Virus record (IMG/VR): IMGVR_UViG_3300010413_000237
Location: 1 to 30,812 of that record
DNA from: a virus
DNA length: 30,812 nucleotides
Reading direction: 5' to 3' (one strand)
Positions 1,797 to 16,372 of the stretch are shown piece by piece; the first letter of the stretch is position 1, and the number at the start of each line of letters is the position of its first letter. The position numbers and the translations under genes are program-made. The notes below the pieces were generated by a model. That model was not told the origin of the DNA, searched no databases, and saw only the letters and a list, made by a program, of their open reading frames with translations.

Positions 1797-1797
1797 G

Positions 1798-2412: not shown

Positions 2413-2439
2413 TGAAGTCTCCTGTTCCCCTACACCTAT

Positions 2440-2469
2440 ATTGTACCACGAAACCGTGGTGCCTGTCAA
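2440..2469 (-). promoter_or_regulatory. Sigma-70 extended -10 promoter with dyad
   Basis: Read on the minus strand: a perfect TTGACA (2469-2464), an 18-base spacer, then TACAAT (2445-2440) preceded by TGG, giving an extended -10. A perfect dyad ACCACG-AAAC-CGTGGT (2445-2460) fills the spacer, exactly where a repressor would block polymerase. It sits just after the DNA polymerase stop and drives the OB-fold gene. The -10 half and the flanking CCACG are shared with the promoter at 7008-7036. Confidence 0.85.
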
Positions 2470-2472
2470 GTA

Positions 2473-4539
2473 CTAATGTACGCCACGCATACCATCCGGG
2501 TTGTGTTCCGCATGGTACTTGTACCAGTTTCTCCCTGCCTCGGCTTCCGCCTTGATCGGGAGGTTGAACTCGAACCCGAACCGCTTGCGGATTACTTCCC
2601 GCACGCCGACGAACAGATTCACCAGCCTCGTTGCGAGGTCCTTCAGGTCTACCCACGCCGGCACGTCGAAGACGACCGAGTCGTGGACAGTCATTATCAC
2701 CAGCACTGGCTGGGAACCGGCAAGGTGCTCGACATTGTAGTTCCATAGGAACTGTCGGAGCTGGCCCAGTATCAGCTTGATGATGTCGCCGGCCATACCT
2801 TGCACCGGGTAGTTCTTGATGGTGGTCGGCTTGTACCCAAGCTCGCCCTTGTACTTCTCCCTGAAGAACCTGTACTCTGCACCGGTCTGTGTGGTTAGCA
2901 CACCGCAGACCTGACCGTCACGCTCAGCCGTGCTCCGGTTCACCTGCTTGATGCACTCGTTCTGGTAGTCCACCACACCGGGGTACATCTCCTCCTCGGC
3001 CCGGATCAGGGCCTCGACATCTCCGATGTCCATGCCAGTAGTGACGGCGATCTTCGGAGCGCCGGCACCGTACGCCCGCTGGAACGAGAACACCTTCGCT
3101 TCCTTACGCTTCTTCGTCCAGTACGGGTCCTCTGCCTTGTACGCTGCACGCACGTCGTCGTACGTCGCACCGTTCGCAGCGGCGGCACGCTTGCTATGGA
3201 AGTCCACCCCGGCGATGATGTCGGCCATGAGCTGGGCGTCCTGAGACAGGAACCCCTGCACCACAACCTCGATCTGTGACAGGTCGACCTCAAGCAGATG
3301 ACCGTCCACGTACCGTGATAAGAAGTGCCTGCGTATTGGCCCGTGAGCTGCGTTCTGCAAGTTCGGGGCGGAGGCAGACAGCCTTCCCGTCGCCACTATC
3401 GAGTGGTTCAGGTTACCGTGGATGAAGCCATCGGGGTACGTGAGTGCCGAGTACCCCTTGAAGTACGTCTTCGCTTCCTTGCTCACCGCTCGGAGCTTGA
3501 GCAGGATGTCGATGAACCCCTGCAACTCCTGCGATACCTTGGGCTTCAGCTTGACCAGCGACTCCTCGTCGGTGCTGGTGAGCTTGACCTTCGCCGGTAC
3601 CTTACGCGGCAACTCCAGCGTGTACTCGTTCCATCGTTTCTTGTGCTCGCCCTTCTTCTTCCCTGACTTGAACACAACCGGCGTCCCGTCCTCCTCGTAC
3701 ATTGGCTCGTTGAGCTTGTACTTCCACGGCCCGCCGTACAGGTACGCGTTCATGAACGGGTTGCTGTTGGGGTTAACGACATGCGCCGGGACCTTCAGGT
3801 CCTTGGCGATGTACTCCACCAGCCAGTCCATGTACTCGTCGACCTTGGGCTGTAACTCCTCGTCCAGCTTGGTCAGGGCACCGACCTTGTCGAAGGTCAT
3901 GCCGTTGATCTCCATGACGCACGTCGCTGCGATGGCGTCCATCTCCATCCGCATCAGCGGCATCAGTCCCCGCTCGGTTGCCTCGCGTACTTGGTCGACG
4001 AACAGACGGTGAGTCGTGTTGATGTCGTGCTCAAGGTACGGCTTGACCTCCTCGTCAGGGATGTCCTCGGTGCTGATCCCCGCTGACCAGTACTCTTTCA
4101 GCCGGCCGGGCTTGACCTCCCAGCCCCGGCGCTCGCAGCACCAGTCCATGCTCGGGTTGATCTGCGACTGGCCACGCAGGCGGAACTCTGCCTGCATACA
4201 GTCCCAGACCCGCACCCTCGGGTCGTCCATGAGCTGCCGCCATGCGGCGGCTGACTGGTTGTTGGGGCCGCACAAGTACTCGATGTCGAACTTGATATTG
4301 ACCCCGACGAGCATCAGCCCGTCGTCAGCAACCTTCGGTGCCGGGACATTCACTGTCCCCTTCGACTGGAACCGAAACGTCTGCGTCGCCTTCTGCACCG
4401 ACAGGTCGTCCCGCAGCCACTTCACTCCCAGCCACACCAGCCAGTTGTCCGGGTGCCACGGGTCCGCCGTGAAGTTCCCGACCGCCGTCTCGCCCTTGTT
4501 GTGCAGGCTCGTCTCGCCGTCTAACACTAATATCCGCAC
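2473..4539 (-). CDS. Family A DNA polymerase with 3'-5' exonuclease
   Basis: The 688-aa product is close to T7 gp5 in size (704 aa). Proofreading motifs are present: LDGET (D7, E9), NIKFD (D85) and YLEHD (Y168, D172). Polymerase motif A is LEVDLSQIEV (D419, E424), followed by LSQ; a product-template motif APNLQN lies at 391-396; motif B is EAKVFSFQRAYGAG (K482, Y490); motif C is TVHDSVVFD (H619, D620). Motif C reads HDS where many family A enzymes have HDE. The start is a GTG at 4539 with AGGGGG about 9 bases upstream and an in-frame TAA just before it. The upstream small ORF reads into this gene in another frame (see the findings). It is the replicative polymerase of the phage, working with the helicase and primase encoded upstream. 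Confidence 0.97.
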   Translation of the reverse strand: MRILVLDGETSLHNKGETAVGNFTADPWHPDNWLVWLGVKWLRDDLSVQKATQTFRFQSKGTVNVPAPKVADDGLMLVGVNIKFDIEYLCGPNNQSAAAWRQLMDDPRVRVWDCMQAEFRLRGQSQINPSMDWCCERRGWEVKPGRLKEYWSAGISTEDIPDEEVKPYLEHDINTTHRLFVDQVREATERGLMPLMRMEMDAIAATCVMEINGMTFDKVGALTKLDEELQPKVDEYMDWLVEYIAKDLKVPAHVVNPNSNPFMNAYLYGGPWKYKLNEPMYEEDGTPVVFKSGKKKGEHKKRWNEYTLELPRKVPAKVKLTSTDEESLVKLKPKVSQELQGFIDILLKLRAVSKEAKTYFKGYSALTYPDGFIHGNLNHSIVATGRLSASAPNLQNAAHGPIRRHFLSRYVDGHLLEVDLSQIEVVVQGFLSQDAQLMADIIAGVDFHSKRAAAANGATYDDVRAAYKAEDPYWTKKRKEAKVFSFQRAYGAGAPKIAVTTGMDIGDVEALIRAEEEMYPGVVDYQNECIKQVNRSTAERDGQVCGVLTTQTGAEYRFFREKYKGELGYKPTTIKNYPVQGMAGDIIKLILGQLRQFLWNYNVEHLAGSQPVLVIMTVHDSVVFDVPAWVDLKDLATRLVNLFVGVREVIRKRFGFEFNLPIKAEAEAGRNWYKYHAEHNPDGMRGVH

Positions 4540-4693
4540 GTGGCATTACCCCCTGTGACTTGTACGCCTTCTTCAGTTGCTTCTCGATGAACTCCACCGG
4601 AGGTATCTCCTCCGGCGGGTACCCTGCCGAGAGCAGCTTGAGCTGGATCAGCGGAGCTACCTTGCGTATCTGCTTCTTGATGCGCCCGTTCAT
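4325..4693 (-). CDS. Small hypothetical protein overlapping polymerase start
   Basis: The frame starts with ATGA overlap on the preceding gene's stop and encodes a plausible 48-residue N-terminal part (MNGRIKKQIRKVAPLIQLKL through KKAYKSQG), basic and helical with a Pro-rich turn. After that it runs 215 bases into the polymerase gene in a different frame, and the predicted residues there look like an out-of-frame shadow rather than protein. A run of five G lies at the boundary. Losing one G would give CAG GGG TAA, ending the protein at 48 aa just before the polymerase GTG. Either a base-call error, a programmed frameshift or a true long overlap is possible. Function unknown. Confidence 0.5.
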   Translation of the reverse strand: MNGRIKKQIRKVAPLIQLKLLSAGYPPEEIPPVEFIEKQLKKAYKSQGVMPRADISVRRRDEPAQQGRDGGRELHGGPVAPGQLAGVAGSEVAAGRPVGAEGDADVSVPVEGDSECPGTEGC

Positions 4694-5058
4694 AGCTTCA
4701 CAATGTCCACGCTTTCGCTGTAGTACCCGTTGCTCTCGCCAAGCCAGCGGATAGTCACGCTACCCTTGGCAGTGCCCAGCTTGTAGAACGTCCACGTGTA
4801 CGAGTCGTTGAATCCTTCAGGCTCGGGACCGTCGTAGTTACTCACCTCCTCGGCTAACGTGATAGGTGAGCCGATCAGGTCCTTCAGGTCACCGCAGATG
4901 TCCTCGACCTGCACGTTCTCGCAGCAGTCCTGAAAGTGTACCATCTTGAACGACTCGTCCCCGATGAAGACGATCTCGTCGTCGCCTACCTCACCCTTGA
5001 CCTCGGTGAACGTCTTGCCCAACAGGGCGTCAATGCTTACTTCGTTGCGCCATCCCAT
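4690..5058 (-). CDS. DUF7448-like phage protein
   Basis: This 122-aa acidic protein carries the stretch KMVHFQDCCENVQVED, which I recognise from memory as the signature of a small phage/bacterial family (DUF7448), with the paired cysteines and preceding HxQD conserved. The C-terminal half contains several aromatic beta strands (DSYTWTFYKLGT, SVTIRWLGESNGYYS). The biochemical role is unknown. It sits between helicase and DNA polymerase, starting one base after the helicase stop with no strong ribosome site, so it is probably translated by coupling. Family assignment is moderate because no search was run. Confidence 0.8.
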   Translation of the reverse strand: MGWRNEVSIDALLGKTFTEVKGEVGDDEIVFIGDESFKMVHFQDCCENVQVEDICGDLKDLIGSPITLAEEVSNYDGPEPEGFNDSYTWTFYKLGTAKGSVTIRWLGESNGYYSESVDIVKL

Positions 5059-5059
5059 A

Positions 5060-6337
5060 CTATTCGTCGAACCTCGCTACGTTGAACCTCGGATATACCT
5101 TGACCTTCGCGTTGCGCATCGTAGGGTCGCCCGGTGTCTCCGCCTTGTTCTTCGGAGTGTAGATGAACCGTGCTTCCTCGTCCGCGCCCTCGCCCAGCTG
5201 CCGCCCCAGTGTGATGATGACATCAGCCTCACCCTGCAACGCCTGCTGACTGCCGGCGAGCTGGTGCATCTCGATGTACGCCTCACCGTTCGCATCACCG
5301 CGTGCCTGATGCACGCCGATGACTGGACAGTACTCTTTGGCGATACCTCGGAACCACTCGAAGGTGTCCTGCAATGCGCCCAGCTTGTCGTCGCTGCCGT
5401 GCTTACCTACCCTGACCTTGTACGCTTGGTCGACCACGACCAGCTTGGCATTGTACTCCCGCAGCTTCCGGCGTATGAGTGCCGGGGTTATGCGTGCGGA
5501 GTCGATGAGCACGATACGATCCGGGTCACCGTTCATCCGCTTGGCGTACTCAGCCTCCTGCTCGCCGTCGTCCATCAGGTCCAGTTCCTCGTGGGTCACA
5601 CCCAGCGCAGCCTTGCGCAGGCGCAGCTTCACCTTGTCGCCTTCCTCCTCGTTGTTGAAGAACAGCACCTTCTCGTCACCGGACAGTTGCGTCGCCATGT
5701 AGGTTGCCTCGCTGGCAACGAACGTGGACTTACCGGTGTCGACGAAAGCAGCCACCACTACGAGGTCACCCTTGCGTATCGGTCCCACCGCCATGCTCAG
5801 GTTGGGGCTGCGCCAGTTCAGGCCACTGCCCAAGTCAGCGTACTTCGCGAGGATGTCACGGATGCTCGTGCGTACCTCGTGGTCGTGCTTGTTGAAGATA
5901 CCGGCCTCGACCTTTGCCGCCTCGACATCGTCCAGCAGTTCCTCGAACAGATCGAACGAGGTGTCCCCTGCGCTGTACTTGTCGGCCTTTGTTGCGATGC
6001 GCCCAGCCCAGTCACGCAGGGCCAGTACTCGCAACAGTTCATGTGCCTGCTGCTTGGTGTCGTCTCGCAGCGCCCGCTGGATGAACTGCTTCAGCATGTC
6101 CAGCTTTTCTTTCGGGCGATTGCTATGACGCGTGAACTTCAGCCACGTCCAGAAGTCCTGCACCAGTTCCGGTGAGTTCACCCCGGTAGCTCCGGGGTGT
6201 GACCTGTACCAGACCCGGAGGTCTTCCATCAGTTGCTTGGTGTCCTCCTCCAGCAGGTGTTGTGGTACTCCACCCTCGTACTTCTCGAAGGTGTCCCTGT
6301 CCTTGAGGAACAGGGAGAGTAACTGTACGTCTGCCAT
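5060..6337 (-). CDS. DnaB/T7 gp4-type replicative helicase
   Basis: The 425-aa protein has a helical N-terminal region and a RecA-type ATPase core from about residue 165. Walker A is AFVDTGKS (197-204), followed by the catalytic glutamate patch NNEEEG (229-233), Walker B LVVVDQ (D303) and the sensor GVHQARGD (H343, Q344). These match the DnaB/T7 gp4 helicase family that unwinds DNA as a hexamer. It has no primase zinc finger or Toprim; those are on the separate gene at 7207-8046. The ribosome site GAGGT lies 5-6 bases from the ATG. It follows the OB-fold gene by 8 bases. Confidence 0.93.
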   Translation of the reverse strand: MADVQLLSLFLKDRDTFEKYEGGVPQHLLEEDTKQLMEDLRVWYRSHPGATGVNSPELVQDFWTWLKFTRHSNRPKEKLDMLKQFIQRALRDDTKQQAHELLRVLALRDWAGRIATKADKYSAGDTSFDLFEELLDDVEAAKVEAGIFNKHDHEVRTSIRDILAKYADLGSGLNWRSPNLSMAVGPIRKGDLVVVAAFVDTGKSTFVASEATYMATQLSGDEKVLFFNNEEEGDKVKLRLRKAALGVTHEELDLMDDGEQEAEYAKRMNGDPDRIVLIDSARITPALIRRKLREYNAKLVVVDQAYKVRVGKHGSDDKLGALQDTFEWFRGIAKEYCPVIGVHQARGDANGEAYIEMHQLAGSQQALQGEADVIITLGRQLGEGADEEARFIYTPKNKAETPGDPTMRNAKVKVYPRFNVARFDE

Positions 6338-6345
6338 ACGCTACC

Positions 6346-6717
6346 TCAGAACGGGATGTCGTCGTCGTAGTCTGCCGGTGCCTCGGCTCGCTGCTTGGCT
6401 TTCTCCTCGATGCGCTTGCGCTGCTCAGCGCCTTCGCGGAAGAACTTGAACTCCTCTGCAACAGACTCAAGCACTGCGTTGGTACGCTTGAAGTCTACCC
6501 TGACATCCGTGAAGCGGATGGCAGTCACGTTGCGGTAGGTTCTCCACCCTGCACCGGTCTTGCTGCTCTTGGTATAGAAACCCACGGCGGCGAAGTCGCC
6601 GACGTTGGGTAGTTCGAGGTCACTGTCAGGATGTACCCCGTACCAGTTACCATCATCCAGCATGAAGCTGGATTCACGTACCGATTTCACAAGTCCAGTC
6701 ACTACACCATTTGCCAT
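6346..6717 (-). CDS. OB-fold ssDNA-binding-like protein with SSB-type tail
   Basis: The 123-aa product starts MANGVVTGLVKSVRESSFML and shows a beta-barrel-like pattern (WYGVHPDSD, NVGDFAAVGFYTK, WRTYRNVTAIRF), then a charged helix, and ends in DYDDDIPF. The last six residues, DDDIPF, are the terminal peptide by which bacterial SSB recruits partner proteins, so an ssDNA-binding or SSB-mimicking role is a strong inference. The N-terminal pattern resembles the protein at 1798-2412, suggesting two related OB-fold proteins with different tails. It is encoded directly upstream of the helicase; the leader contains a long hairpin at 6749-6770. Confidence 0.78.
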   Translation of the reverse strand: MANGVVTGLVKSVRESSFMLDDGNWYGVHPDSDLELPNVGDFAAVGFYTKSSKTGAGWRTYRNVTAIRFTDVRVDFKRTNAVLESVAEEFKFFREGAEQRKRIEEKAKQRAEAPADYDDDIPF

Positions 6718-6748
6718 GTCACTATTACCTCGTTACGTTACTGTTAAC

Positions 6749-6770
6749 CAAGTACCCTTACGGGTACTTG
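6749..6770. promoter_or_regulatory. Perfect 9-bp hairpin in leader of OB-fold gene
   Basis: CAAGTACCC and GGGTACTTG form a perfect inverted repeat with a 4-base loop; on the minus-strand transcript the loop is GUAA, a stable GNRA tetraloop. There is no U tract, so it is not a standard terminator. A second palindrome AAGTAC-a-GTACTT lies at 6777-6789 over the HTH gene's stop. The pair could be an operator, an RNA processing site or a translation control element. Confidence 0.6.
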
Positions 6771-6774
6771 TTAC

Positions 6775-6984
6775 CTAAGTACAGTACTTATTACTTATTA
6801 CTGCACCCGCGTAGTGCTTCCCGATCCACGGAGCAGTACCCGCCGCGTCAGTGTATCGGTGCCCCCGCAATATGTTGCTGATCTGCTTCTGGCTAAGCCC
6901 AAACATCCTTGCCAGATCACTCTGGTTCACAGGCCACTCCGCGTAGAAGTACCTGATCGCCTCATCCCGGTCGTCTTTCGTCAT
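6775..6984 (-). CDS. Small HTH DNA-binding protein
   Basis: The 69-aa product starts MTKDDRDEAIRYFYAEW and carries a clear helix-turn-helix: VNQSDLARMFGLSQKQISNI at about residues 20-39, followed by LRGHRYTD. In-frame ATGs at 7002 and 6993 are rejected because the promoter at 7008-7036 would start transcription near 7001, and only the 6984 start has a usable ribosome site (GGGAG at 9 bases). Being the first gene after a strong promoter with a partial dyad suggests an autoregulating repressor or activator. The inference that it also acts at the 2440-2469 promoter, which shares the CCACG element, is untested. Confidence 0.8.
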   Translation of the reverse strand: MTKDDRDEAIRYFYAEWPVNQSDLARMFGLSQKQISNILRGHRYTDAAGTAPWIGKHYAGAVISNKYCT

Positions 6985-7207
6985 CGTCTCCATCTCCCTC
7001 ATCCCTTATTGTACCACGATTCGCCTCCCGTGTCAAGCGGTGAGGCGGATGTTTGTCCAGCATTGCGAGCAGGAACTCGAACTCCTGCGAAAGCTGGACG
7101 AGGTACGCTTCGCACTGCGTACCGGTGCGATGCTCCAGCAATGCACGCTCGGTGATGATTACCATCGAGCGAACCTGCCCCATGATGTACTCGCTGGTCT
7201 CGCTCAT
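6962..7207 (-). CDS. Small hypothetical protein
   Basis: This 81-aa frame starts by TAATG overlap with the primase stop. The N-terminal two thirds (MSETSEYIMGQVRSMVIITE and on to LAMLDKH) look like two long helices; the tail is highly charged (DEGDGDDDERRPG). Its end overlaps the promoter and the start of the HTH gene by 23 bases, so the promoter at 7008-7036 is inside this gene. No family is recognised. Confidence 0.72.
   Translation of the reverse strand: MSETSEYIMGQVRSMVIITERALLEHRTGTQCEAYLVQLSQEFEFLLAMLDKHPPHRLTREANRGTIRDEGDGDDDERRPG
7008..7036 (-). promoter_or_regulatory. Sigma-70 extended -10 promoter
   Basis: On the minus strand a perfect TTGACA (7036-7031) is followed by a 17-base spacer and TGG-TACAAT (-10 at 7013-7008). 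Spacing, the full -35 and the extended -10 make it a very strong host-type promoter. It lies inside the 3' end of the preceding gene and should start transcription near 7001, feeding the HTH, OB-fold, helicase and polymerase genes. Confidence 0.85.
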
Positions 7208-8046
7208 TACGCTGCCCTCCTCAGTAATTGGACAATCTGTTCGTCGGAAAGTTCCTTCGGGTCTGCACCGACGCCGGTGATCTTAGTCACGTCGGCGTAC
7301 GGTGTGATCCTCCGGGCCAGCTTGCGCTGCGACTCGCGCACCGCAGGGTTGTCGTCGTCCAGCCACACCAGCACACGGTTCGGCTTGTACCGCAGGATGC
7401 CGGCCATCGTAGTCTCACCAAGCTGGGCGTTGAGGATGGCGGTCGCCGTAGCGAACCGCCCTACCTTCACCGCACTCAGCATGTCCTCGACCACTACCAT
7501 CGTGCCGAAGTCTAGGTGCTCGCCCCAGCCTGCCGTGAAGAACGGCCGGTCCCACCCCTCCTGCTTGCGTGTCAAGTACTTGGGTCCCTGATCGTGGTCA
7601 AGCAAGCGGCGCGCTTGGAAAGCGATCATCTCGCCGCCCTGCCAGATCGGGAGGATGGCCCGCTTCCAGTTGTCGGACCACCCAAACCCGTAGTGCCTCC
7701 GCTCCTCCATCGTGATCCCGTACTTGGCGAACCACACGTTGGCCTTGACGTGACAGTCACTCAGCTCGTACCGCATGTCGTTCGGTAAGCGCAGCTTATG
7801 GACCGTCCTGTCTTTCGCACGTTTCCTTATGAACGACTGTCGACCGAGGGACCAGCGCCCCGACTGGGCGCAATGGTGACAGTACCCGATCAGGTGTACC
7901 CCGTCCCGCTTCACGAACAGCCGGCCCTTCCGGTCGGCACCGCTCGGGCAGTTCGGGTGGTTGACGTGTACCTGCTGCCCGTCCTCCAGTTCCTTGAACT
8001 CCGGGTGCAGGGCCAGTACTTCATGCCAGTCAAGTCGGTCGAACAT
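7207..8046 (-). CDS. DNA primase (zinc ribbon plus Toprim)
   Basis: The 279-aa protein begins MFDRLDWHEVLALHPEFKEL. A zinc-binding N-terminus has H30, C33 (HPNCPSG) and C56, C59 (YCHHCAQSG). The Toprim domain shows the glutamate strand VVVEDMLSAVKVG and the metal-binding LVWLDDDNPA. This matches the primase half of T7 gp4, which makes RNA primers, but here it is a stand-alone gene rather than fused to helicase. A GTG two codons upstream (8052) is in frame, but the ATG at 8046 follows GAGGTG and is preferred. The pair with the helicase at 5060-6337 would form the priming-unwinding unit. Confidence 0.93.
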   Translation of the reverse strand: MFDRLDWHEVLALHPEFKELEDGQQVHVNHPNCPSGADRKGRLFVKRDGVHLIGYCHHCAQSGRWSLGRQSFIRKRAKDRTVHKLRLPNDMRYELSDCHVKANVWFAKYGITMEERRHYGFGWSDNWKRAILPIWQGGEMIAFQARRLLDHDQGPKYLTRKQEGWDRPFFTAGWGEHLDFGTMVVVEDMLSAVKVGRFATATAILNAQLGETTMAGILRYKPNRVLVWLDDDNPAVRESQRKLARRITPYADVTKITGVGADPKELSDEQIVQLLRRAA

Positions 8047-8056
8047 GGTCACCTCG

Positions 8057-8281
8057 TTAGTCGAGGAGGTACTTCTCCTCCGGGTAGATCACGACGTGGC
8101 TGGGATGGCCCAGCTTGTCGTGCCACAGGTTGTCGTAGCGGTGCTCCGGCAGGTTCTCGAACGCCTTCTGCAAGCACTTGGGGCAGCAGAACTCCTCGAC
8201 CGGGTTGCCATTCGCATCGTACGCATCCGGTATCAGCAGCGTAGCTGCCGGCATCGGACCATCACAGGCTTTGCAGTGCAT
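8057..8281 (-). CDS. Small zinc-ribbon protein
   Basis: The 74-aa product starts MHCKACDGPM and contains two cysteine pairs, CKAC (3-6) and CCPKC (about residues 31-35), spaced as in a zinc ribbon. The rest is aromatic and charged (HRYDNLWHDKLGHPSHVVIY). The ATG overlaps the preceding stop as TGATG, and a longer frame from 8398 is rejected because it would cover the neighbouring gene. Similar small zinc-ribbon proteins are common in phage early regions; function unknown. Confidence 0.78.
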   Translation of the reverse strand: MHCKACDGPMPAATLLIPDAYDANGNPVEEFCCPKCLQKAFENLPEHRYDNLWHDKLGHPSHVVIYPEEKYLLD

Positions 8282-8538
8282 CACTTCTTCCCCTTGGTTC
8301 CGTACTTGAACAGGTCGACAATGACTTGGTGGTGATCCCAGTCGATGTCGCAGCTTTCGTAAGGCCCACCGTCGATCAGGTCCGACAGTGCCTTCCACGT
8401 ACTGTGCAGTGTCGTCAGCCGGGCGTGGTTCTGTGCATCCACAGACATCGACCCGATCAGCAGCCGCACCTCACGCGCCTCGGCGTCGGTCAGCGTCAGC
8501 TTGATGTTGCCCTTCGTGGTGTATCGTGCCTTTGCCAT
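8281..8538 (-). CDS. Small hypothetical protein
   Basis: This 85-aa protein (MAKARYTTKGNIKLTLTDAE) has a beta start followed by two helices and a basic end (KYGTKGKK). The ribosome site AGGAG lies about 9 bases upstream, and the stop overlaps the next ATG. The opening IKLTLTDAEAREVRLLIG resembles short phage proteins of unknown role, from memory. No catalytic motif is visible. Confidence 0.75.
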   Translation of the reverse strand: MAKARYTTKGNIKLTLTDAEAREVRLLIGSMSVDAQNHARLTTLHSTWKALSDLIDGGPYESCDIDWDHHQVIVDLFKYGTKGKK

Positions 8539-8539
8539 G

Positions 8540-8779
8540 TTAGTTGATCTCCTGTGTGTCGGTAGGTTTCAGCAGGTGCAGCGGCTTGACTGCGCCCGAC
8601 TGTATCAGCTCGAAGTACATGCGAAGGAACCCTGTCGCCATCGCGTACATGCCGAACGAGTCGGCGTTACCCATGCCCTGCTCGTCAGGCTCAAGGGCGT
8701 CGGGGTTATCCCGTCGCCACTGTTCCAGTGTGCCGGCCATCAGGCCGAGGCTTACTTGCGTTGCGTAATCAAGACTCAT
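8540..8779 (-). CDS. Small hypothetical protein
   Basis: The 79-aa frame starts MSLDYATQVSLGLMAGTLEQ, with GAGG 9 bases upstream and an 11-base overlap with the previous gene. Upstream in-frame starts are shadow sequence of that gene. The protein is largely helical with an acidic middle (NPDALEPDEQGMG) and a C-terminal FLRMYFELIQSG segment. It is not recognised. Confidence 0.72.
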   Translation of the reverse strand: MSLDYATQVSLGLMAGTLEQWRRDNPDALEPDEQGMGNADSFGMYAMATGFLRMYFELIQSGAVKPLHLLKPTDTQEIN

Positions 8780-8936
8780 CGTCATCGTCCTCGTCTTTCG
8801 GTACAAAGATGTGGGCACGCACCGCGTACCCTCCAACCACCTCCCATACGTCGTCGTACGGGTCGTTCCCCACGTGGATGTTGTCGTCGCCGAGGTACCT
8901 GAACCTCGCCCGCTGCACCACCTCATCGTACGTCAT
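8769..8936 (-). CDS. Small acidic-tailed hypothetical protein
   Basis: The 55-aa protein begins MTYDEVVQRARFRYLGDDNI and ends in a strongly acidic tail (KDEDDDDES). An earlier ATG at 8954 exists, but GGGAGG sits 6 bases before the 8936 ATG, which also overlaps the upstream stop by 14 bases. The body has alternating aromatic and aliphatic strands (DVWEVVGGYAVRAHIFV), suggesting a small beta fold. Function unknown. Confidence 0.72.
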   Translation of the reverse strand: MTYDEVVQRARFRYLGDDNIHVGNDPYDDVWEVVGGYAVRAHIFVPKDEDDDDES

Positions 8937-9153
8937 AGTGAACCTCCCATCCAAGGTGCCAGCGCCAGAACTTCAGCGCGATACGAAAGCCACGGCGCAG
9001 CCAGTAGTCTTTCGGCTTGCGTATGCCCGGCTTGATGTCCGTCGCCGGAACCGGAGACTCCAGCGTCGTCACCGAGTACAGCGGTGTCAGCAGTACACAG
9101 GGCAGCAAGTTGTACACGTGCCCGCAGTAGGCGCATTGTTTCACGATCTTCAT
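8923..9153 (-). CDS. Small protein with N-terminal CxxC
   Basis: The 76-aa product starts MKIVKQCAYCGHVYNLLPCV, with a CxxC knuckle and a further Cys at residue 19. The C-terminal half is basic and Trp-rich (DYWLRRGFRIALKFWRWHLG), which could be an amphipathic or membrane-associated helix. AAGGAG lies about 10 bases before the ATG. A full zinc site is not evident. Function unknown. Confidence 0.72.
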   Translation of the reverse strand: MKIVKQCAYCGHVYNLLPCVLLTPLYSVTTLESPVPATDIKPGIRKPKDYWLRRGFRIALKFWRWHLGWEVHYDVR

Positions 9154-9342
9154 TCACGGGTGCTCCTTGATGCAGAGGTACTCGATGCTGCGCACCGCAT
9201 ACCTGTTGTCGTTCTGCTGTACCCACGCCTTGCCGGCCGCTTCGCACGCGGCCGAGTCCCGTGAGTGCAGCGTCACGTGGTCGATTGCAACACCGCTACT
9301 CGTTTGCAGTGTCAGGATCAGCAGCCACTCGTATGCTATCAT
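9154..9342 (-). CDS. Small protein with N-terminal hydrophobic segment
   Basis: The 62-aa product starts MIAYEWLLILTLQTSSGVAI, a short hydrophobic segment that may be a signal anchor, then a soluble part with two cysteines (AACEAAGKAW and EYLCIKEHP) able to form a disulfide if exported. A GTG one codon upstream is rejected for the ATG at 9342, which overlaps the ligase stop as TGATG and has GGAGGG 7-8 bases before it. It is probably a small periplasmic or membrane protein of unknown role. Confidence 0.7.
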   Translation of the reverse strand: MIAYEWLLILTLQTSSGVAIDHVTLHSRDSAACEAAGKAWVQQNDNRYAVRSIEYLCIKEHP

Positions 9343-10229
9343 CACATATCCCTCCAGTCTCGGAAGCCTTTGAACACAGGGAAGCGGGGCTTGTCCTGCA
9401 TCCCGCTTGGCTGGTACTTGAAGGTAACAGTTCGTCCAATAACTGCGGCAGCGTCACGCCAGATGGCAGCTCGGAGAGCATCATCGAATCCTGTACCGAC
9501 TCGCAGCTCACCCCATTCTGTTGACAGTACGAGAGCACCCGTAGTTCCAGCTCCGCGAAGTCCCGCCGCATGAGTGCTTCTCTTTGCATGTCCAAGTTCA
9601 TCGCGTTCCAGTTCATTGCCATTGTGCATCTTCTCCTCAACACCGACGACCACACCCTCGGCGTCGGCGAACTGCTTCAGCTTCAGCAACCATCCCTGCT
9701 TCAGCGTGCTACGTCCCTGCTTGTACTTGCCCTTCGGGTCACGTGTCATCGTGCCCTCGTACCCAGCCAGCACGTGCTCGCTGTCGAGATCACGTAGCTG
9801 CTGCGAATGGTACACGTACACGTGCTCCACTAACACCACCTCCTCGGGGAGGCGCTGGCACGCTGCTCCGGCGTGCATGAACCGCTGCTCAAACGGGTTG
9901 TCGGGGTGCATGAATGAGTCGAACACCTCGAAGCGGAACTCCGGGGTACCGTCGACCGACATTACCTTCGACTGCACCGTGTTGAAGTCGTCACGCACAC
10001 CGTCAGTGTAGGTGACCAGCTCACCGTCGAGGAACACGATGCTCACACCGAATGAGTCCAGCGTCTTGCGTATGTGGTCGTTCGGTATCGGCTTAAACTT
10101 CCGGCTAACCGGGCCGAGTGACGGGTGAATCAGGCACCGTATCCCGTCCAGCTTCGGGCTGGCGAGCACCGGGTAGCTGATAGACTCCGGGGCGTCCATC
10201 GCCACGGCCAACATGGGTTTCGTAATCAT
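9342..10229 (-). CDS. ATP-dependent DNA ligase
   Basis: At 295 aa it is a compact phage ligase. The adenylation motif I is SPKLDGIRC with nucleophile K26; motif III is FLDGELV; motif IV is YEGTMTRDP; motif V is WLLKLKQF with paired lysines. A C-terminal OB domain follows (GALVLSTEWGELRVG to FKYQPSGM). It would seal nicks in replicated phage DNA, after the exonuclease and polymerase process Okazaki fragments. The ATG overlaps the upstream stop as ATGA and is preceded by GAGGTG. Confidence 0.95.
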   Translation of the reverse strand: MITKPMLAVAMDAPESISYPVLASPKLDGIRCLIHPSLGPVSRKFKPIPNDHIRKTLDSFGVSIVFLDGELVTYTDGVRDDFNTVQSKVMSVDGTPEFRFEVFDSFMHPDNPFEQRFMHAGAACQRLPEEVVLVEHVYVYHSQQLRDLDSEHVLAGYEGTMTRDPKGKYKQGRSTLKQGWLLKLKQFADAEGVVVGVEEKMHNGNELERDELGHAKRSTHAAGLRGAGTTGALVLSTEWGELRVGTGFDDALRAAIWRDAAAVIGRTVTFKYQPSGMQDKPRFPVFKGFRDWRDM

Positions 10230-10813
10230 GCGTCACCTCGCAGGTAGTCAATGTGTCGGGCACTCACGTCGTACTGGTCGTCGTACTTGTCCGGGTTACG
10301 GTCGGCAAGGTTCACGCACCACTGCCGCCAAAGGTACTCGCTGCCACCGATACGCTCGCACAGGTCGATGTATCCGCGCAGCTTGATCTCACGTGTGCGC
10401 AGCGTGAGGTTCGGGTCGAGGCGTAACTGCGACGCAGCTACGTCGTACATCCTTGCGTTGTGGCTGTCGATGCAGCCGATACGGTTGAACATGAGCTGGC
10501 ACATGAAGCCCGCCTTCACCATACCGAAGCCGGGCACCGTGCTCCATAGGTCCAGCAAGTCGAGGTCGTTGTGCCGACTGATCGACTCCGAGTACAGCTC
10601 GTGCTTGTTCTCCTTCAGGTACAGGTACGTGTCCCGTTTGAATCCCCAAAGGTACTGCGACGTGTGGCCATGCTCGCGCACGTCCTTGAGCATGTGCCCT
10701 ACTTGATCCCACGACTGCTGGATACTGAGCACCACCATCAGCGCCGTGTCCACCATCTGGTCACTGTTGTACCGTGCATAGTCGTTGCACGACTTGATGT
10801 GTAGCCCGTACAT
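10226..10813 (-). CDS. HhH-GPD-like protein, possible DNA glycosylase
   Basis: The chosen start at 10813 (MYGLHIKSCNDYARYNSDQM) has GGAGG 5 bases upstream; a longer frame from 10879 runs through a neighbouring small ORF. The 195-aa helical protein contains TVPGFGMVKAGFMCQLM (92-108) then GCIDSHNARMY (113-123). This mirrors the helix-hairpin-helix and following catalytic loop of endonuclease III-type glycosylases, where LPGVG..K and VDTH hold the catalytic Lys and Asp; here K100 and D116 are candidates. No iron-sulfur cysteine cluster is seen. It lies directly upstream of ligase, which would fit base-excision repair. The lysine is one residue off the usual spacing, so activity is uncertain. 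Confidence 0.65.
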   Translation of the reverse strand: MYGLHIKSCNDYARYNSDQMVDTALMVVLSIQQSWDQVGHMLKDVREHGHTSQYLWGFKRDTYLYLKENKHELYSESISRHNDLDLLDLWSTVPGFGMVKAGFMCQLMFNRIGCIDSHNARMYDVAASQLRLDPNLTLRTREIKLRGYIDLCERIGGSEYLWRQWCVNLADRNPDKYDDQYDVSARHIDYLRGDA

Positions 10814-10814
10814 A

Positions 10815-10919
10815 TTACCTCCGCTTGTCAAGTGCGCGCCACCCTCGCAGGTAGCTTGCGTCAATGAGTTTGAACACACCCTTCTGCTCGTCGAAGTAGT
10901 ACTGCCCTACCACGTCCAC
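10815..10919 (-). CDS. Tiny hypothetical protein in gene gap
   Basis: A 34-aa frame opens with GTG at 919 in the 10900s (a second GTG at 10913 overlaps the previous stop) and ends with TAA two bases before the glycosylase-like ATG. It reads DVVGQYYFDEQKGVFKLIDA and then a basic end (GWRALDKRR). It carries the ribosome site of the next gene in its last codons, as other genes in this block do, and fills an otherwise unexplained gap of about 90 bases. The start codon is uncertain and no ribosome site is obvious. Confidence 0.5.
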   Translation of the reverse strand: MDVVGQYYFDEQKGVFKLIDASYLRGWRALDKRR

Positions 10920-11308
10920 TTCAGGCCAAGCCTCACGTTGTTGAGGGCGTACCCACCCTCGACCCCGATGGTCACCACCTGCCACCCTTCACGCCAGTAC
11001 CGGGGCAGCGCACGGCTGACCCCGTAGTGAAGGACCGACGTGCCTACAAAGTAGGCGACAGTCGGAAGTGGCTCCGGGTTGCGGCCGAGTACTAACCCGG
11101 CCGGCCCCCGTTCCTCGATGTTGTCGTGGTTGCGGATGTCCATCGTGGTTCGCATGTCGATCAATGCGAACAGGTTGTACCCGATCTCCAGTGCCGTGTT
11201 CTCCGGCGTCCACTTGTCGGCAGCGCATACGCTGTCCGAGTGGAACACCGCCCAGCACCAGAACCACAGCACCCCGATGAACGCCGCCGCTTCGAGTGCC
11301 CTACGCAT
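10907..11308 (-). CDS. Exported or membrane protein, hypothetical
   Basis: This 133-aa product begins MRRALEAAAFIGVLWFWCWA, a basic N-terminus followed by a hydrophobic core and SVCAADK, which fits a cleavable signal or a membrane anchor. The remainder has ALEIGYNLFALIDMRTT, an RNPEPLPTVAYFVGTSVLHY segment and a Gly-rich hydrophobic end (VVTIGVEGGYALNNVRLGL), so further membrane contact is likely. The ATG has AAGGAGG 7-8 bases upstream. The role is unknown; a host envelope function such as superinfection exclusion would be speculation. Confidence 0.75.
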   Translation of the reverse strand: MRRALEAAAFIGVLWFWCWAVFHSDSVCAADKWTPENTALEIGYNLFALIDMRTTMDIRNHDNIEERGPAGLVLGRNPEPLPTVAYFVGTSVLHYGVSRALPRYWREGWQVVTIGVEGGYALNNVRLGLKWTW

Positions 11309-11708
11309 CGCCGGCCTCCTTCACCTTGAAGTAACACCGGGTGAACGGGTCGTACGTGTAGTCACCGGCCGGCTCGTGACGGCCGACGTTCTCCATCACA
11401 CCGAAGTACTCCTCGTGACCGTTCGGGTACACCTTGTACACCTGATGGTTGTCGACCAGCAGGCACAAGTCCTGCCCGTACCGCTTCAGGTATGCCAGCA
11501 CCAGATCGTGGTAGTTCGAGCCGAGTACGACCGACGACTCACGCTCGCCGTTGTACTCACCGATCACCAGCTTGTACGGTATCGCCGCTTCCTCCAGCTC
11601 GTCGAGCAACTGGCGGCGGCGCTGCACGTTCTCGTCGACGGTCAGCTCCGCACGGTCAGCAGAGAATATGAATACAGCCGGGCCAGATTGTGCGCGGAAT
11701 AGTTTCAT
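11301..11708 (-). CDS. DUF3293-like protein
   Basis: The 135-aa product starts MKLFRAQSGPAVFIFSADRA. The order of short motifs, FSADRAELTVDEN, then RRRQLLDELEEAAIPYKLVI, GERESSVVLG and LKRYGQDLCLL, matches the DUF3293 family as I remember it (SA.N....N, E.S..V, ..YGQ). The function of that family is unknown. AAGGAGGTG lies before the ATG, which overlaps the upstream stop as TGATG; the GTG one codon earlier is less likely. It is one of the early small genes nearest the control region, where phages often encode host-takeover factors. Confidence 0.72.
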   Translation of the reverse strand: MKLFRAQSGPAVFIFSADRAELTVDENVQRRRQLLDELEEAAIPYKLVIGEYNGERESSVVLGSNYHDLVLAYLKRYGQDLCLLVDNHQVYKVYPNGHEEYFGVMENVGRHEPAGDYTYDPFTRCYFKVKEAGDA

Positions 11709-11878
11709 CACTTCACCTCCTTCAGGTTACGCTTCGCCACCACCTGCAACTGGCCGTTGACCAGTGCGAGAGTGTGCGTCTGCTCGTTGATCTCCAGCTC
11801 GCCGAACTTGCGCACCGCCTTCGGTGCCTGTCTGTTGATGAGCTGTACGCTTGCGCCGTTCTTGGTTACCAGTGCCAT
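11708..11878 (-). CDS. Small hypothetical protein (56 aa)
   Basis: This small gene begins MALVTKNGASVQLINRQAPK and ends NLKEVK. It is preceded by AAGAGGT at 8 bases, and its stop overlaps the next ATG as TGATG, while its last codons supply that gene's AAGGAGGTG. The pattern of short alternating strands (ASVQLINR, TLALVNGQLQVVAK) suggests a small beta protein. No family is recognised. The coupling signals at both ends make it a confident gene despite its size. Confidence 0.8.
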   Translation of the reverse strand: MALVTKNGASVQLINRQAPKAVRKFGELEINEQTHTLALVNGQLQVVAKRNLKEVK

Positions 11879-11883
11879 GTCGA

Positions 11884-12072
11884 TTACCTCTTGAGTGTGT
11901 TGGTTGCGCGCATCATTATGCAGTCGAGACCGTGATCGGTGCCGAATTGAACCGCTGCGCGTGCGGCTGTCGCTTCGGCTACCGGGTTAGGGAACAGGCG
12001 TACCACGTTGCTGTCACCGTACGTGGCGTACCACTTGCGCCAGCTATTCTGGCTCACGTTGCGTGTGTCCAT
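11884..12072 (-). CDS. Small hypothetical protein
   Basis: The 62-aa frame starts MDTRNVSQNSWRKWYATYGD with GGAG about 7 bases before the ATG and overlaps the preceding gene by 29 bases. Upstream in-frame codons are shadow sequence. The product is mostly helical with an Ala-rich middle (AEATAARAAVQFGTDHG) and a basic end. No function is evident. Confidence 0.72.
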   Translation of the reverse strand: MDTRNVSQNSWRKWYATYGDSNVVRLFPNPVAEATAARAAVQFGTDHGLDCIMMRATNTLKR

Positions 12073-12232
12073 CGTAGTACTCCGGGTTGAAGTTAACGTA
12101 GTTGATCCAGTCGACCGCCGCCCAGTAGTGCGTCGGCACTGGCGGTGCCCGGAATGAGTAGTCACCCTGCGCGTACGCTTTGCGTATGCGGGCAGGCACC
12201 TCGTCGAGTGTCTTGTAGTGCGGCTTCGACAT
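12044..12232 (-). CDS. Small aromatic-rich hypothetical protein
   Basis: This 62-aa product starts MSKPHYKTLDEVPARIRKAY. It is rich in Tyr and Trp (THYWAAVDWINYVNFNPEYY). The ATG overlaps the previous stop as TGATG and has AGGAGG 4-5 bases upstream; the GTG one codon earlier is not preferred. It contains no cysteine or catalytic motif. Function unknown. Confidence 0.75.
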   Translation of the reverse strand: MSKPHYKTLDEVPARIRKAYAQGDYSFRAPPVPTHYWAAVDWINYVNFNPEYYDGHTQREPE

Positions 12233-12699
12233 CACACCTCCTGCTCGATGGCCTTCAGTATACCCTGCTCAAGGCACCGGGTCACGAACGCCTGTTGGTC
12301 GTCGACGTACTTGCCGTGCTTCTGGTAGTACATCACCTGTCCGAGAATGTCCGCCGTGATAGCGGCGAAGTCCTCGGCGACTAGCCCGTACCGCTTCGCG
12401 TGCTGCGCCATGTGTGCGTGGCTAACCGCGAGCACCTGCTGCTCACCTGCCGGGCTGAAGTCCAGCTCGTGCGCGATGTGTATCCCGTCGTGCCACGCCC
12501 GGAAGGCGTAGTTCACGTTCGGCGATGAGTAGATGGTGCGGTCGCAGCCGCCGTTGTACACCGGCAACGGCTGGCCCATCCACAAGGTGCCCCGGTGCAA
12601 CAGCAGCGCCTTGTACGTGTTCGGTGCATCCGCTACCGCAATGTGTGGCGGTGCCGCATCACGTATGAACGCTTCGAGTCGTGAGCTTGCCTTGTACAT
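12232..12699 (-). CDS. Phage hypothetical protein (155 aa)
   Basis: The sequence includes DRTIYSSPNVNYAFRAWHDG followed by IHIAHELDFSPAGE, a block I recall from uncharacterised proteins in several tailed phages. The histidines and acidic residues there (AWHDGIHIAHELD) could bind a metal or form an active site, but this is a guess. The rest is helical (VLAVSHAHMAQHAKRYG, LGQVMYYQKHGKYVDD). It has TAGGAGG 6 bases before the ATG. Function unknown. Confidence 0.78.
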   Translation of the reverse strand: MYKASSRLEAFIRDAAPPHIAVADAPNTYKALLLHRGTLWMGQPLPVYNGGCDRTIYSSPNVNYAFRAWHDGIHIAHELDFSPAGEQQVLAVSHAHMAQHAKRYGLVAEDFAAITADILGQVMYYQKHGKYVDDQQAFVTRCLEQGILKAIEQEV

Positions 12700-12708
12700 G
12701 GTAACCTC

Positions 12709-12915
12709 CTACGGTTTCCGAAAGTAGTTGAACAGCCTGAGCCAGTCGCCCTCGTTGTCGCGTGCGATTTCACGCAGCCACTTGTACTCGTCGTTGGCGT
12801 TGCGCCAGCGTCGAAAGTCGTCGCTGTATTCGTACGACCAGTCGAAGTACCGCAGCCGGTACGCGTACTCCGCGAGGCCCAGTCGTGGGCCGCGCATGAT
12901 GCCATCATTCGCCAT
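12709..12915 (-). CDS. Small hypothetical protein
   Basis: The 68-aa product begins MANDGIMRGPRLGLAEYAYR and is rich in Arg, Trp and Tyr (LRYFDWSYEYSDDFRRWRNA), ending WLRLFNYFRKP. The ribosome site GAGGAGG is 6 bases upstream, and the start overlaps the preceding gene by 11 bases. It looks like a compact helical protein. No family is recognised. Confidence 0.75.
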   Translation of the reverse strand: MANDGIMRGPRLGLAEYAYRLRYFDWSYEYSDDFRRWRNANDEYKWLREIARDNEGDWLRLFNYFRKP

Positions 12916-13288
12916 GCTTCACCTCCTCGTACTTGCGCAGGCACCGTTCGGCAGCTTCCCAGTACCGCGTCTTGCGATTGTACCCCGCGCTGGCGGTAGC
13001 GGCCACGTTCCACAACGCAGCCGCACCTTGCCAGTCGCCCCGTTTTTCCGCCGCGCTTGCGTGCTCGACGTAGAAAGCCGGTGCTTCGAGTGTCATCTGC
13101 TGGTCACCTCCACGGTCCTCCACGGTTAGCCGCTTCTCACTGAACAGCACCACTTCGAGAGTGCCGCCCGCCTCGTCCTGCACACGCAGCTTAAAGACGT
13201 GCGTGTCGTTCTTGCGGTTCACGCTGAGCGTGTACTGCTCCACGTCGGCGGATACCGCCCGATGAAAGTCAACGCCTGTCGTACTCAT
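12905..13288 (-). CDS. Protein with ANR/PerC-like C-terminal domain
   Basis: The 127-aa product has a beta-rich N-terminal half (QYTLSVNRKNDTHVFKLRVQ, LEVVLFSEKRL) and a helical C-terminal part: ASAAEKRGDWQGAAALWNVA continuing to RYWEAAERCLRKYEE. The pattern A..E..G.W..AA.LW..A...A and a closing R.W...R..C resembles the ANR/PerC/AnsR family of small transcription regulators from phages and enterobacteria. Fusion to a beta domain is unusual for that family. The ATG overlaps the previous stop and has GGGAGG 7 bases upstream. A regulatory role is inferred from resemblance only. Confidence 0.7.
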   Translation of the reverse strand: MSTTGVDFHRAVSADVEQYTLSVNRKNDTHVFKLRVQDEAGGTLEVVLFSEKRLTVEDRGGDQQMTLEAPAFYVEHASAAEKRGDWQGAAALWNVAATASAGYNRKTRYWEAAERCLRKYEEVKHGE

Positions 13289-13521
13289 GCCCGATCCTCC
13301 CGCTCAATCCACTCCGCCCCGATCACCGACACGTAGTACTCGCTATCGCTGCGCCACTCGTCGGCCGGGTCATCGCTCACAGTGCGTACGCACACCTTGC
13401 CACTGCTGCTCGGCTTGTGCGGTGGCCTGAAGTACGTCACCTCCACCACTTCGCCGTCACGTAGCACCACGCGGTCGCCTACCCGCACCTCGTCGCCTGT
13501 TTCCTGATATACCAGTCGCAT
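13285..13521 (-). CDS. Small SH3-like phage protein
   Basis: The 78-aa product MRLVYQETGDEVRVGDRVVL continues VTYFRPPHKPSSSGKVCV and closes YYVSVIGAEWIERED. I recognise this order from a common small phage protein of unknown function; the GDxV..DG.VV.V.YF pattern suggests a small beta barrel. Start TAATG overlaps the upstream stop, and GGAGGTGGAG is the ribosome site. Function unknown. Confidence 0.82.
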   Translation of the reverse strand: MRLVYQETGDEVRVGDRVVLRDGEVVEVTYFRPPHKPSSSGKVCVRTVSDDPADEWRSDSEYYVSVIGAEWIEREDRA

Positions 13522-13661
13522 TACTCCACCTCCACGAAATCGGTCAGGGTTTCCAGCGTGATGATTTCCATCTCATGCTGGGCGTCGTCGTCGTAGTTCA
13601 CAAGCTCGCACACCCATTGTGTGCGCGTCCGGTAACAGTACCCCATTTCGTAATTGCTCAT
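13521..13661 (-). CDS. Small hypothetical protein (46 aa)
   Basis: The protein begins MSNYEMGYCYRTRTQWVCEL and ends acidic (TLTDFVEVE). GGAGG lies 7 bases upstream of the ATG, and its stop overlaps the next gene as TAATG, so the gene is supported by signals at both ends despite its size. Its central run of acidic residues (NYDDDAQHEMEI) is notable. No family is recognised. Confidence 0.78.
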   Translation of the reverse strand: MSNYEMGYCYRTRTQWVCELVNYDDDAQHEMEIITLETLTDFVEVE

Positions 13662-13675
13662 TGCCGTGCCTCCGC

Positions 13676-13825
13676 CTAGTACCAAGGATATTGCCGCGCC
13701 GACTTGCGCTGTACGCCAGTAGTCACCCGCCGCTTTGCCACGTCGCTACGTGCGGCCGGGATGTCGCCCGCGCCGCGTCTTGCCTTCCCGGTAACCATCC
13801 GGGCCTGTTTGTTGATCGGTCTCAC
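13676..13825 (-). CDS. Small basic hypothetical protein (49 aa)
   Basis: The GTG at 13825 overlaps the previous stop as GTGA and has GGGGAG 6 bases upstream, so it is preferred over the GTG at 13870, which lies inside the preceding gene. The product MRPINKQARMVTGKARRGAG is strongly basic and ends SARQYPWY. It could bind nucleic acid. Its end contains the ribosome site region of the following gene. Confidence 0.68.
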   Translation of the reverse strand: MRPINKQARMVTGKARRGAGDIPAARSDVAKRRVTTGVQRKSARQYPWY

Positions 13826-13998
13826 TGCCAGCTCCCCACGTAAACCGGTGAATTGCTGCCAAGCGGGCACACGTAACCGCCTTTGACGGTGTCAGCGCAC
13901 CGCTTCGCGTTGGTCAGGTTTTTGTACTTGCGCATAGTCCAGCGCGCTGCGCGTGTCGTGCCGTACGAATCCCGGTAAAAGTGCATTACAGTATACAT
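13822..13998 (-). CDS. Small hypothetical protein (58 aa)
   Basis: The product begins MYTVMHFYRDSYGTTRAARW and has two cysteines (KRCADTVKGGYVCPLG). GGGGTG lies about 5 bases before the ATG, and the stop overlaps the next GTG as GTGA. The alternating Tyr/Val pattern suggests a small beta-alpha fold. It is not recognised. Confidence 0.75.
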   Translation of the reverse strand: MYTVMHFYRDSYGTTRAARWTMRKYKNLTNAKRCADTVKGGYVCPLGSNSPVYVGSWQ

Positions 13999-14053
13999 GG
14001 TTCACCCCGTTGCGTTGTCGTGAGTAGGCGCGCATCCCTGCGCCGGTTTCCTA

Positions 14054-14554
14054 TTACGCCGCTTTAGCGGCTGCGCCGGTTTCAGATTCGAGCGCGAACC
14101 CGGCATCCTGTACGATTTCCAACAGCCCGAAGTCGCCCGCCTCCAGCGCCAGCGCCTCCAGCTCGGCGAGCTTTTTGGCCAGCGCCTTGCGCACCTTCGC
14201 GCCGTCGTATTTCGGCGTCTCGGCTTTCTTCGCCTCAAGCTCGGCGTACCAGAGCACGCCCATTGCATCCGCTACCCGGAACGCGCCGCCTTTCTTCGCC
14301 TTGCGAAATTCGCCGTCTTTCCACGTGGCCGGCGCGAACCGCACAACGAATTTGCGGAGCTGCGCACCGTTTTGGGGCGATGTCGCCTTGACCAATTTGG
14401 TGCAGAGCGTAAAGTCGCCATGCTCCGCCGCGTGCGCCAGCCCGCCGATAAGCGCCGCTTGAATGTCGTCGCGGTCGCGGCCGGTACGCTTCGCCACGCG
14501 GTCGATGGTTTTCAGGGTTTCGGCCTTGCTCAGGATGATGATAGTGTCGGTCAT
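14054..14554 (-). CDS. Phage hypothetical protein (166 aa)
   Basis: The protein starts MTDTIIILSKAETLKTIDRV and is helical with Ala/Lys-rich stretches. The middle block HGDFTLCTKLVKATSPQNGA continuing to LRKFVVRFAPATWKDGEFRK is reminiscent of uncharacterised T7-type phage proteins. The C-terminal half is a long Ala/Glu/Lys helix. GAGG is 9 bases upstream. A copy of the GTCGG...TTTACA repeat (14546-14562) covers its start codon, so whatever binds the central array may control it. Function unknown. Confidence 0.78.
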   Translation of the reverse strand: MTDTIIILSKAETLKTIDRVAKRTGRDRDDIQAALIGGLAHAAEHGDFTLCTKLVKATSPQNGAQLRKFVVRFAPATWKDGEFRKAKKGGAFRVADAMGVLWYAELEAKKAETPKYDGAKVRKALAKKLAELEALALEAGDFGLLEIVQDAGFALESETGAAAKAA

Positions 14555-14584
14555 TTTTACAGTCCTCGTCGGTTTACTTTACAC
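14546..14584. repeat. Two outlying copies of the array-B 17-mer
   Basis: GTCGGTCATTTTTACAG at 14546-14562 covers the start codon of the 14054-14554 gene, and GTCGGTTTACTTTACAC at 14568-14584 covers the end of the upstream gene. Their starts are 22 bases apart, within the spacing range of the main array at 15498-15635, about 0.9 kb away, and they have the same orientation. Confidence 0.75.
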
Positions 14585-15120: not shown

Positions 15121-15215
15121 AAAGGTTTCTTATGACCCCTATAGAAAAGATTGATTTGACACGTGTTTCCCCAGTCAATTCAACGGGTTACCGTAACCGC
15201 GGGCAATTTCAGGTC

Positions 15216-15248: not shown

Positions 15249-15311
15249 CGGGCTGTCATAAGTAAAACTTACGGCAAAACCGGGCTAACCATTAAAAACT
15301 TTCATGACCAA

Positions 15312-15458
15312 GCAATTACCGTGCCAACCGGTTACCGTGCAAGTAACGTGCCAGTCCAGACCATGCAAGTAGTGTGCCACCTTGCGCCATGCAAGCGGCG
15401 TGCCATTCAATAGGTATGCAAGACGCGTGCCAGCGTCGCGCCTAGCAAGTACCATGCC
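15312..15458. repeat. Array A: six GCAAGnnnnGTGCCA repeats
   Basis: Copies start at 15312, 15339, 15365, 15391, 15418 and 15444, a very regular 26-27 base period (2.5 helical turns). Examples are GCAAGTAACGTGCCA, GCAAGCGGCGTGCCA and GCAAGACGCGTGCCA; the first (GCAATTACCGTGCCA) and last (GCAAGTACCATGCCA) each carry one change in the conserved part. The array looks like iterons bound by an initiator or regulator. The 11-12 base stretches between copies are not conserved. Confidence 0.85.
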
Positions 15459-15497
15459 ATAATAACCCCACGGTTTACTCAGGTATTCTCGGGACCT

Positions 15498-15635
15498 GTC
15501 GGTAAACTTTACACAGTGAGTCGGTACTCTTTACACGGGCAAGGATGATGTCGGATTACTTTACACGGGTGTCGGGGTACCTTACAGTCACGGAATGTCG
15601 GGGTACTTTACAGGGTATGTCGGTCCCCTTTACAC
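15498..15635. repeat. Array B: six GTCGG...TTTACAC repeats
   Basis: Six 17-base copies start at 15498, 15520, 15550, 15571, 15597 and 15619 (steps 22, 30, 21, 26, 22). Examples are GTCGGTAAACTTTACAC, GTCGGATTACTTTACAC and GTCGGGGTACTTTACAG. All have one orientation. The spacing is looser than array A and the sequence is unrelated, so a second binding protein is likely. Two further copies lie at 14546-14584. Confidence 0.85.
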
Positions 15636-15675
15636 TCTCCCCGCGTACGAAATCGGAACCGTAACGTAAGTACGA

Positions 15676-15873: not shown

Positions 15874-15987
15874 ACTTCAGGGTGGGGGTGGTACGTTCGG
15901 ATAGGGTACCGGGAGGACGGCTGTACGGGCCTCTCAGGAGGCCACAGGGGCCTGTAAATTACTGGGTATTTTCGTACACCGGGATGG

Positions 15988-16362: not shown

Positions 16363-16372
16363 GGCTGATTGT

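Follow-up and report, generated by a model that had tools for sequence, protein, structure and literature searches.

Two different tandem arrays of short repeats, here called A and B, lie side by side in the genome of an uncultured virus, which raises the question of what binds them and whether they serve one function or two. The window, meaning the whole stretch of DNA that was analyzed, is the complete record of 30,812 bases. Both arrays occupy the intergenic region that separates the leftward replication genes from the rightward structural genes, the latter encoding terminase, portal, capsid, and tail proteins. The replication side (996..14554, minus strand), presumed to be a single operon, encodes a family A DNA polymerase, a DnaB-like helicase, a primase, a 5′-3′ exonuclease, an ATP-dependent ligase, an S-adenosylmethionine lyase family protein (PF23780; 11301-11711, minus strand; possibly anti-restriction), and others. 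Its first gene (14054..14554, minus strand) encodes a 166-aa protein of phrog_1448 (function unknown), with a homologue in L008, the closest relative (81% TerL identity). AT skew switches sign at the array-bearing intergenic region. Known isolates are distant relatives of this virus at most, and the intergenic region, used as a DNA query, had no match in the phage collection.

Array B was described in an earlier note as six 17-mers in the same orientation at 15498-15635 with steps of 21 to 30 bases, and this description was recovered in full. The copies start at 15498, 15520, 15550, 15571, 15597, and 15619, all on the plus strand as direct copies, with start-to-start steps of 22, 30, 21, 26, and 22. 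GTCGG-N5-TTTACA is exact in five of the six; copy 4 (15571) departs from it at one position and ends in CTTACAG. With an extra 5′ T, the conserved unit comes to 17 nt, TGTCGG-N5-TTTACA. The copies are TGTCGGTAAACTTTACA (copy 1, 15497..15513; 22.2 bits), AGTCGGTACTCTTTACA (copy 2, 15519..15535; 14.5 bits), TGTCGGATTACTTTACA (copy 3, 15549..15565; 24.5 bits, the best in the window), TGTCGGGGTACCTTACA (copy 4, 15570..15586; 19.3 bits), TGTCGGGGTACTTTACA (copy 5, 15596..15612; 21.4 bits), and TGTCGGTCCCCTTTACA (copy 6, 15618..15634; 13.3 bits), with scores taken from a model of the box that was trained blind on PEP-CTERM promoters. A second cluster, not mentioned earlier, contains copies at 14546 and 14568 in the same orientation as array B, namely, TGTCGGTCATTTTTACA (box 7, 14545..14561, plus strand; 21.9 bits), which overlaps the start codon of the first leftward gene, and, 22 bp from it, CGTCGGTTTACTTTACA (box 8, 14567..14583, plus strand; 17.6 bits). 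The array was to stand or fall by a genome-wide motif search, and the copies do not occur at chance frequency. Across the whole record, the full 17-mer with up to two mismatches has 8 matches against 1.7 expected, at least 8 being reached in 0 of 100 dinucleotide shuffles, and all 8 fall into the two clusters. GTCGG-N5-TTTACA occurs 7 times forward and 0 times in reverse, and the reversed-pattern control gave 0.

The motif of array B is the PEP-CTERM box, motif 1 of Haft 2006, a predicted PrsR binding site. Haft 2006 described a 17-nt motif, with TTTACA at its end and sometimes repeated, 5′ of proteobacterial PEP-CTERM genes, followed by a sigma-54 site after a mean of 62.8 nt (range, 32-92), and predicted that the NtrC-like response regulator PrsR binds it (PMC1569441). 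RpoN dependence has been reported for the PEP-CTERM gene pepA (PMC9850573). The eight copies in the window fit the description of a 17-nt motif with a TTTACA end. Because the text of Haft 2006 gives the TTTACA end only, the motif was rederived independently from PEP-CTERM genes picked by Pfam model, not by motif, in six genomes; each genome was reached via one tandem-box locus, and a slight selection remains. Unsupervised EM on 28 PEP-CTERM upstream regions yielded TGTCGGAATTTTTTACA, and the best eight matches to this model in the window coincide with the eight box copies (six in array B and those at 14546 and 14568). In a separate dyad count, the commonest spaced pair, TGTCG-N7-TTACA, was present in 16 of 29 upstream regions versus a shuffle maximum of 3.

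The tandem motif was found in 51 stretches of the bacterial genome collection, mostly from Desulfuromonadales, Rhodospirillales, and Betaproteobacteria, and single boxes also occur in bacteria. Many of the tandem boxes precede an open reading frame (ORF) with a C-terminal PEP-CTERM sorting signal and have a sigma-54 -24/-12 site ~50 to 115 nt downstream of the box. PrsR (TIGR02915) scored above the curated cutoff in 16 of 26 tandem-box genomes versus 0 of 14 controls. Tandem boxes in bacteria follow a helical phase of about 10.5 bp (R=0.63; the loci are not fully independent); in the window, four of the steps (22, 30, 21, and 22) come near this phasing, and the step of 26 does not. No PEP-CTERM domain was found in the window proteins scanned or among the listed translations, and the boxes in the window are not upstream of a PEP-CTERM gene.

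Array A is made up of six minus-strand sigma-54 -24/-12 sites, all nearly perfect and aimed at the replication operon. Scored against the consensus TGGCACG-N4-TTGCW (12 positions), they are TGGCATGGTACTTGCT (site 1, 15444..15459; 11/12), which is nearest to array B (37 nt), followed by TGGCACGCGTCTTGCA (site 2, 15417..15432; 12/12), TGGCACGCCGCTTGCA (site 3, 15390..15405; 12/12), TGGCACACTACTTGCA (site 4, 15364..15379; 11/12), TGGCACGTTACTTGCA (site 5, 15338..15353; 12/12), and TGGCACGGTAATTGCT (site 6, 15311..15326; 12/12). All six have the GG-N10-GC core within TGGCAYR-N4-TTGCW and show zero mismatches to TGGCAYRNNNNTTGCW. They are the six top sigma-54 sites in the window, the next best scoring 10, and six sites were reached in 0 of 100 shuffles. 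On the minus strand, a promoter scan of 14000 to 16800 turned up nothing resembling a sigma-70 promoter.

Most likely, arrays B and A together form one module, with B as its enhancer half and A as its promoter half. The standard layout in NtrC-family systems has enhancer sites ahead of the sigma-54 promoter, and the two arrays are therefore read together as a module for the leftward operon. The 37 nt between copy 1 of array B and the nearest array A site fall within the published range of 32 to 92 nt. The earlier note inferred two binding proteins and two functions from two unrelated arrays. Its two proteins find a counterpart in PrsR-type NtrC-family sites in array B and sigma-54 elements in array A, but neither the unrelatedness of the arrays nor a pair of separate functions, such as initiation and transcription switching, is supported, because an enhancer array abutting a sigma-54 promoter array directly downstream reads as a single module. 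Nothing specific to replication initiation was found. Array B can be explained without the two helix-turn-helix (HTH) proteins that the note singled out (6775-6984 and 16165-16362), and neither has a demonstrated link to it; a family search on the HTH-like protein of 65 aa (ORF 16165-16362) gave no match.

On balance, we favor array B as a six-site enhancer for PrsR, or a close relative, that acts on the sigma-54 promoters of array A and switches on the replication operon. With an active host PrsK/PrsR system, PrsR would occupy array B and contact sigma-54 RNA polymerase poised as closed complexes on array A, which it would open by spending ATP; we infer here that the host has PrsR, that PrsR binds the boxes, and that it activates rather than being titrated. 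The phage replication genes would then be switched on in cells expressing PEP-CTERM/exopolysaccharide genes, as in a biofilm or floc. Boxes 7 and 8 (14546 and 14568), which lie across the start of the first operon gene, may serve as a downstream enhancer or in feedback. Orientation counts against such a module: at bacterial loci, the box points its TTTACA end toward the sigma-54 site (of 51 loci, 19 have a site on that side and 1 has one on the other), but the window is inverted, and a window scan found no good sigma-54 site on the TTTACA-facing side of array B. Because of this inversion, we do not class the window boxes with standard PEP-CTERM promoters and treat them as sites that may work in a similar way. 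The leader of ~750 nt to the first gene also counts against the module.

Arrays similar to array A recur in other viruses. A pattern scan for three tandem copies of TGGCA-N6-TTGC at 24 to 29 bp found at least 119 viral stretches (L098-L216), with arrays of 3 to 11 copies; these and array A are accordingly relabeled as sigma-54 sites. Among the stretches listed, the positions that the pattern leaves free agree with the sigma-54 consensus, with C/T in 99% after TGGCA, then G/A in 97%, and A/T in 91% after TTGC. Relatives of window proteins, mostly terminase or portal, are encoded by 65 of the 119 listed. The downstream gene is on the same strand as the array in 74 cases versus 25 (crude ORF calls, among the stretches listed), and three stretches (L103, L106, and L113) have sigma-54 sites on both strands, interleaved within the same 200 bp. 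Sigma-54 clusters upstream of TerL were clear in only 4 of 40 relatives, and array A is thus recurrent, not universal; L008 contains a single good sigma-54 site and zero boxes. No box was found within 500 bp upstream of other viral sigma-54 arrays listed (0/107), and a de novo search for enhancer-like repeats upstream of such arrays found no common motif.

The box itself also occurs in other viruses. The tandem motif was found in 10 stretches of viral contigs, which are unlike the window proteins tested except for terminase-like matches in L092 and L094. When 17 box-bearing contigs were compared, common proteins were limited to one duplicate pair, plus a weak terminase match between L092 and the window. 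Thirteen box-array contigs fetched without sigma-54 selection contain 8 good sigma-54 sites near boxes versus 0.85 expected (Poisson P ~3e-6). A box followed by a sigma-54 site in the host orientation was found in 15 viral stretches, seven of which precede PEP-CTERM ORFs and the others genes without a PEP-CTERM signal. The PEP-CTERM genes behind a box and sigma-54 promoter (L271, L274, L275, L277, L279, L282, and L285) could be phage borne or lie in flanking host DNA. The reversed orientation is rarer in viruses (3 stretches at 20 to 50 nt and 3 at 35 to 65 nt, two of them in both). Inverted geometry like that of the window is present in L096 and L321 (~39 nt) and in L268, L269, and L270 (32 to 43 nt); the search range partly selects for such spacings.

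The main rival to activation is sequestration, with the arrays as a sponge for PrsR and sigma-54. Each of many replicated genomes would bring eight PrsR sites and six sigma-54 sites as decoys, soaking up both factors and silencing host PEP-CTERM/exopolysaccharide genes and other sigma-54 genes, and orientation would be irrelevant. We regard this as unlikely, although it is the best placed of the alternatives; it is retained because the orientation of the boxes is opposite to that in host promoters, L008 and the 107 listed arrays are boxless, and the host searches were empty. A sponge would also suit the pairing of arrays B and A, which match the two factors that one host regulon needs, and the both-strand sites in some phage arrays. 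Against it, all six array A sites aim at the replication operon, itself without a sigma-70-like promoter in the region, other viral arrays mostly share the strand of the downstream gene, and box-to-sigma-54 spacing is alike across unrelated contigs.

That a phage protein, such as an HTH protein of 65 or 75 aa, binds array B as an operator or replication iteron, with a borrowed or convergent likeness to the PrsR box, is improbable. The 65-aa ORF does adjoin the array and has no match in the closest relative, likewise boxless, and a shift of GC and AT skew at ~15 kb would suit an origin or divergent transcription. The position-by-position agreement of the boxes with the host motif, and their recurrence in viral contigs unrelated to one another, nevertheless speak against it, and a phage binder would not predict six sigma-54 sites adjoining array B. 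An examination for an iteron origin found two small HTH-like ORFs and no initiator family, and the repeats match transcription factor sites. We give very little credence to array B as a set of weak rightward sigma-70 promoters for the late genes, with TTTACA as the -35 element and TACACT/TACAGT of the copy 21 to 22 bp on as the -10 element. Three promoter-scan matches do lie inside boxes (14556-14585, 15560-15588, and 15607-15636), among 7 found versus 1.1 expected, but each scores only 9/12 and arises from box sequence that is conserved in bacteria for another reason; the steps of 26 and 30 are at odds with such a layout, and bacteria also have the box as a single copy.

The preferred enhancer-promoter reading can be set beside known systems. 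The window resembles the PEP-CTERM motif 1/PrsR regulon in its 17-nt box, tandem copies, and sigma-54 -24/-12 site within 32 to 92 nt (PMC1569441; PMC9850573) but differs in being phage borne, with 6+2 inverted boxes and six sigma-54 sites instead of one, and in targeting a replication operon. The nearest analogue is the Pho box of cyanophages, lytic phages with sites for a host two-component regulator (PhoBR) before their own genes, including DNA polymerase; PhoB binding was shown there by gel shift, with the caution that predicted phage boxes are not always functional (PMC10976474). The window differs from that system in its NtrC-like, sigma-54-dependent regulator, in its eight-site tandem array, and in that its sites are predicted. 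Array A shares with RpoN -24/-12 promoters that have NtrC-type upstream activating sequences the GG-N10-GC core, the TGGCACG-N4-TTGCW consensus, and upstream enhancers, and it differs in having six promoter sites in tandem at 26 to 27 bp. We know of no described bacterial promoter with such sixfold packing. No report of phage sigma-54 arrays or phage PEP-CTERM boxes was found in the literature searched, which was largely outside subscription journals.

Little is known of sigma-54 control over phage genes. If the preferred reading is correct, a lytic phage reads the biofilm or floc switch of its host and ties its own replication to that switch (or disables it), which would bear on the ecology of phages in sludge, sediment, and biofilms. 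For an uncultured phage clade, the reading would also predict that the hosts have both RpoN and PrsR. More tentatively, and with somewhat less confidence than its negation would command, the viral tandem arrays of 3 to 11 sigma-54 sites may be a widespread element, previously undescribed, that recruits or sequesters host RpoN polymerase, with single lineages grafting on enhancers for a host regulator (here PrsR, which controls biofilm-matrix genes) that couple infection to the biofilm state or shut it off.

Searches for a host with tRNA and DNA in several hundred genomes found none, and no host could be read off the terminase because its clade lacks a close isolate. A tRNA-Tyr gene in the late region (17610-17694, plus strand) had no close match among ~750 genomes searched. 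One DNA match of 42 bp (E=2.5e-6; window 2155-2196) falls within the coding stretch of the glycine-rich repeat in ORF 1798-2469 and was discarded. Near the arrays, a Fur-box-like element, AATGAGAATGATT, is present at 15675-15687, with similar elements in L008 (2227), L045, L048, L057, and L118. As a clade-wide partner of sigma-54 arrays, it was rejected, being present in few relatives only and not significant overall. A conserved palindrome, TTGTACATtattgATGTACAA, at 15989-16011 (~3394-3416 in L008) is a probable operator, with a related half at 15108. The 65-aa HTH-like ORF is flanked by the repeat TGTCTAATTAGTGAG at 16129-16146 and 16370-16387.
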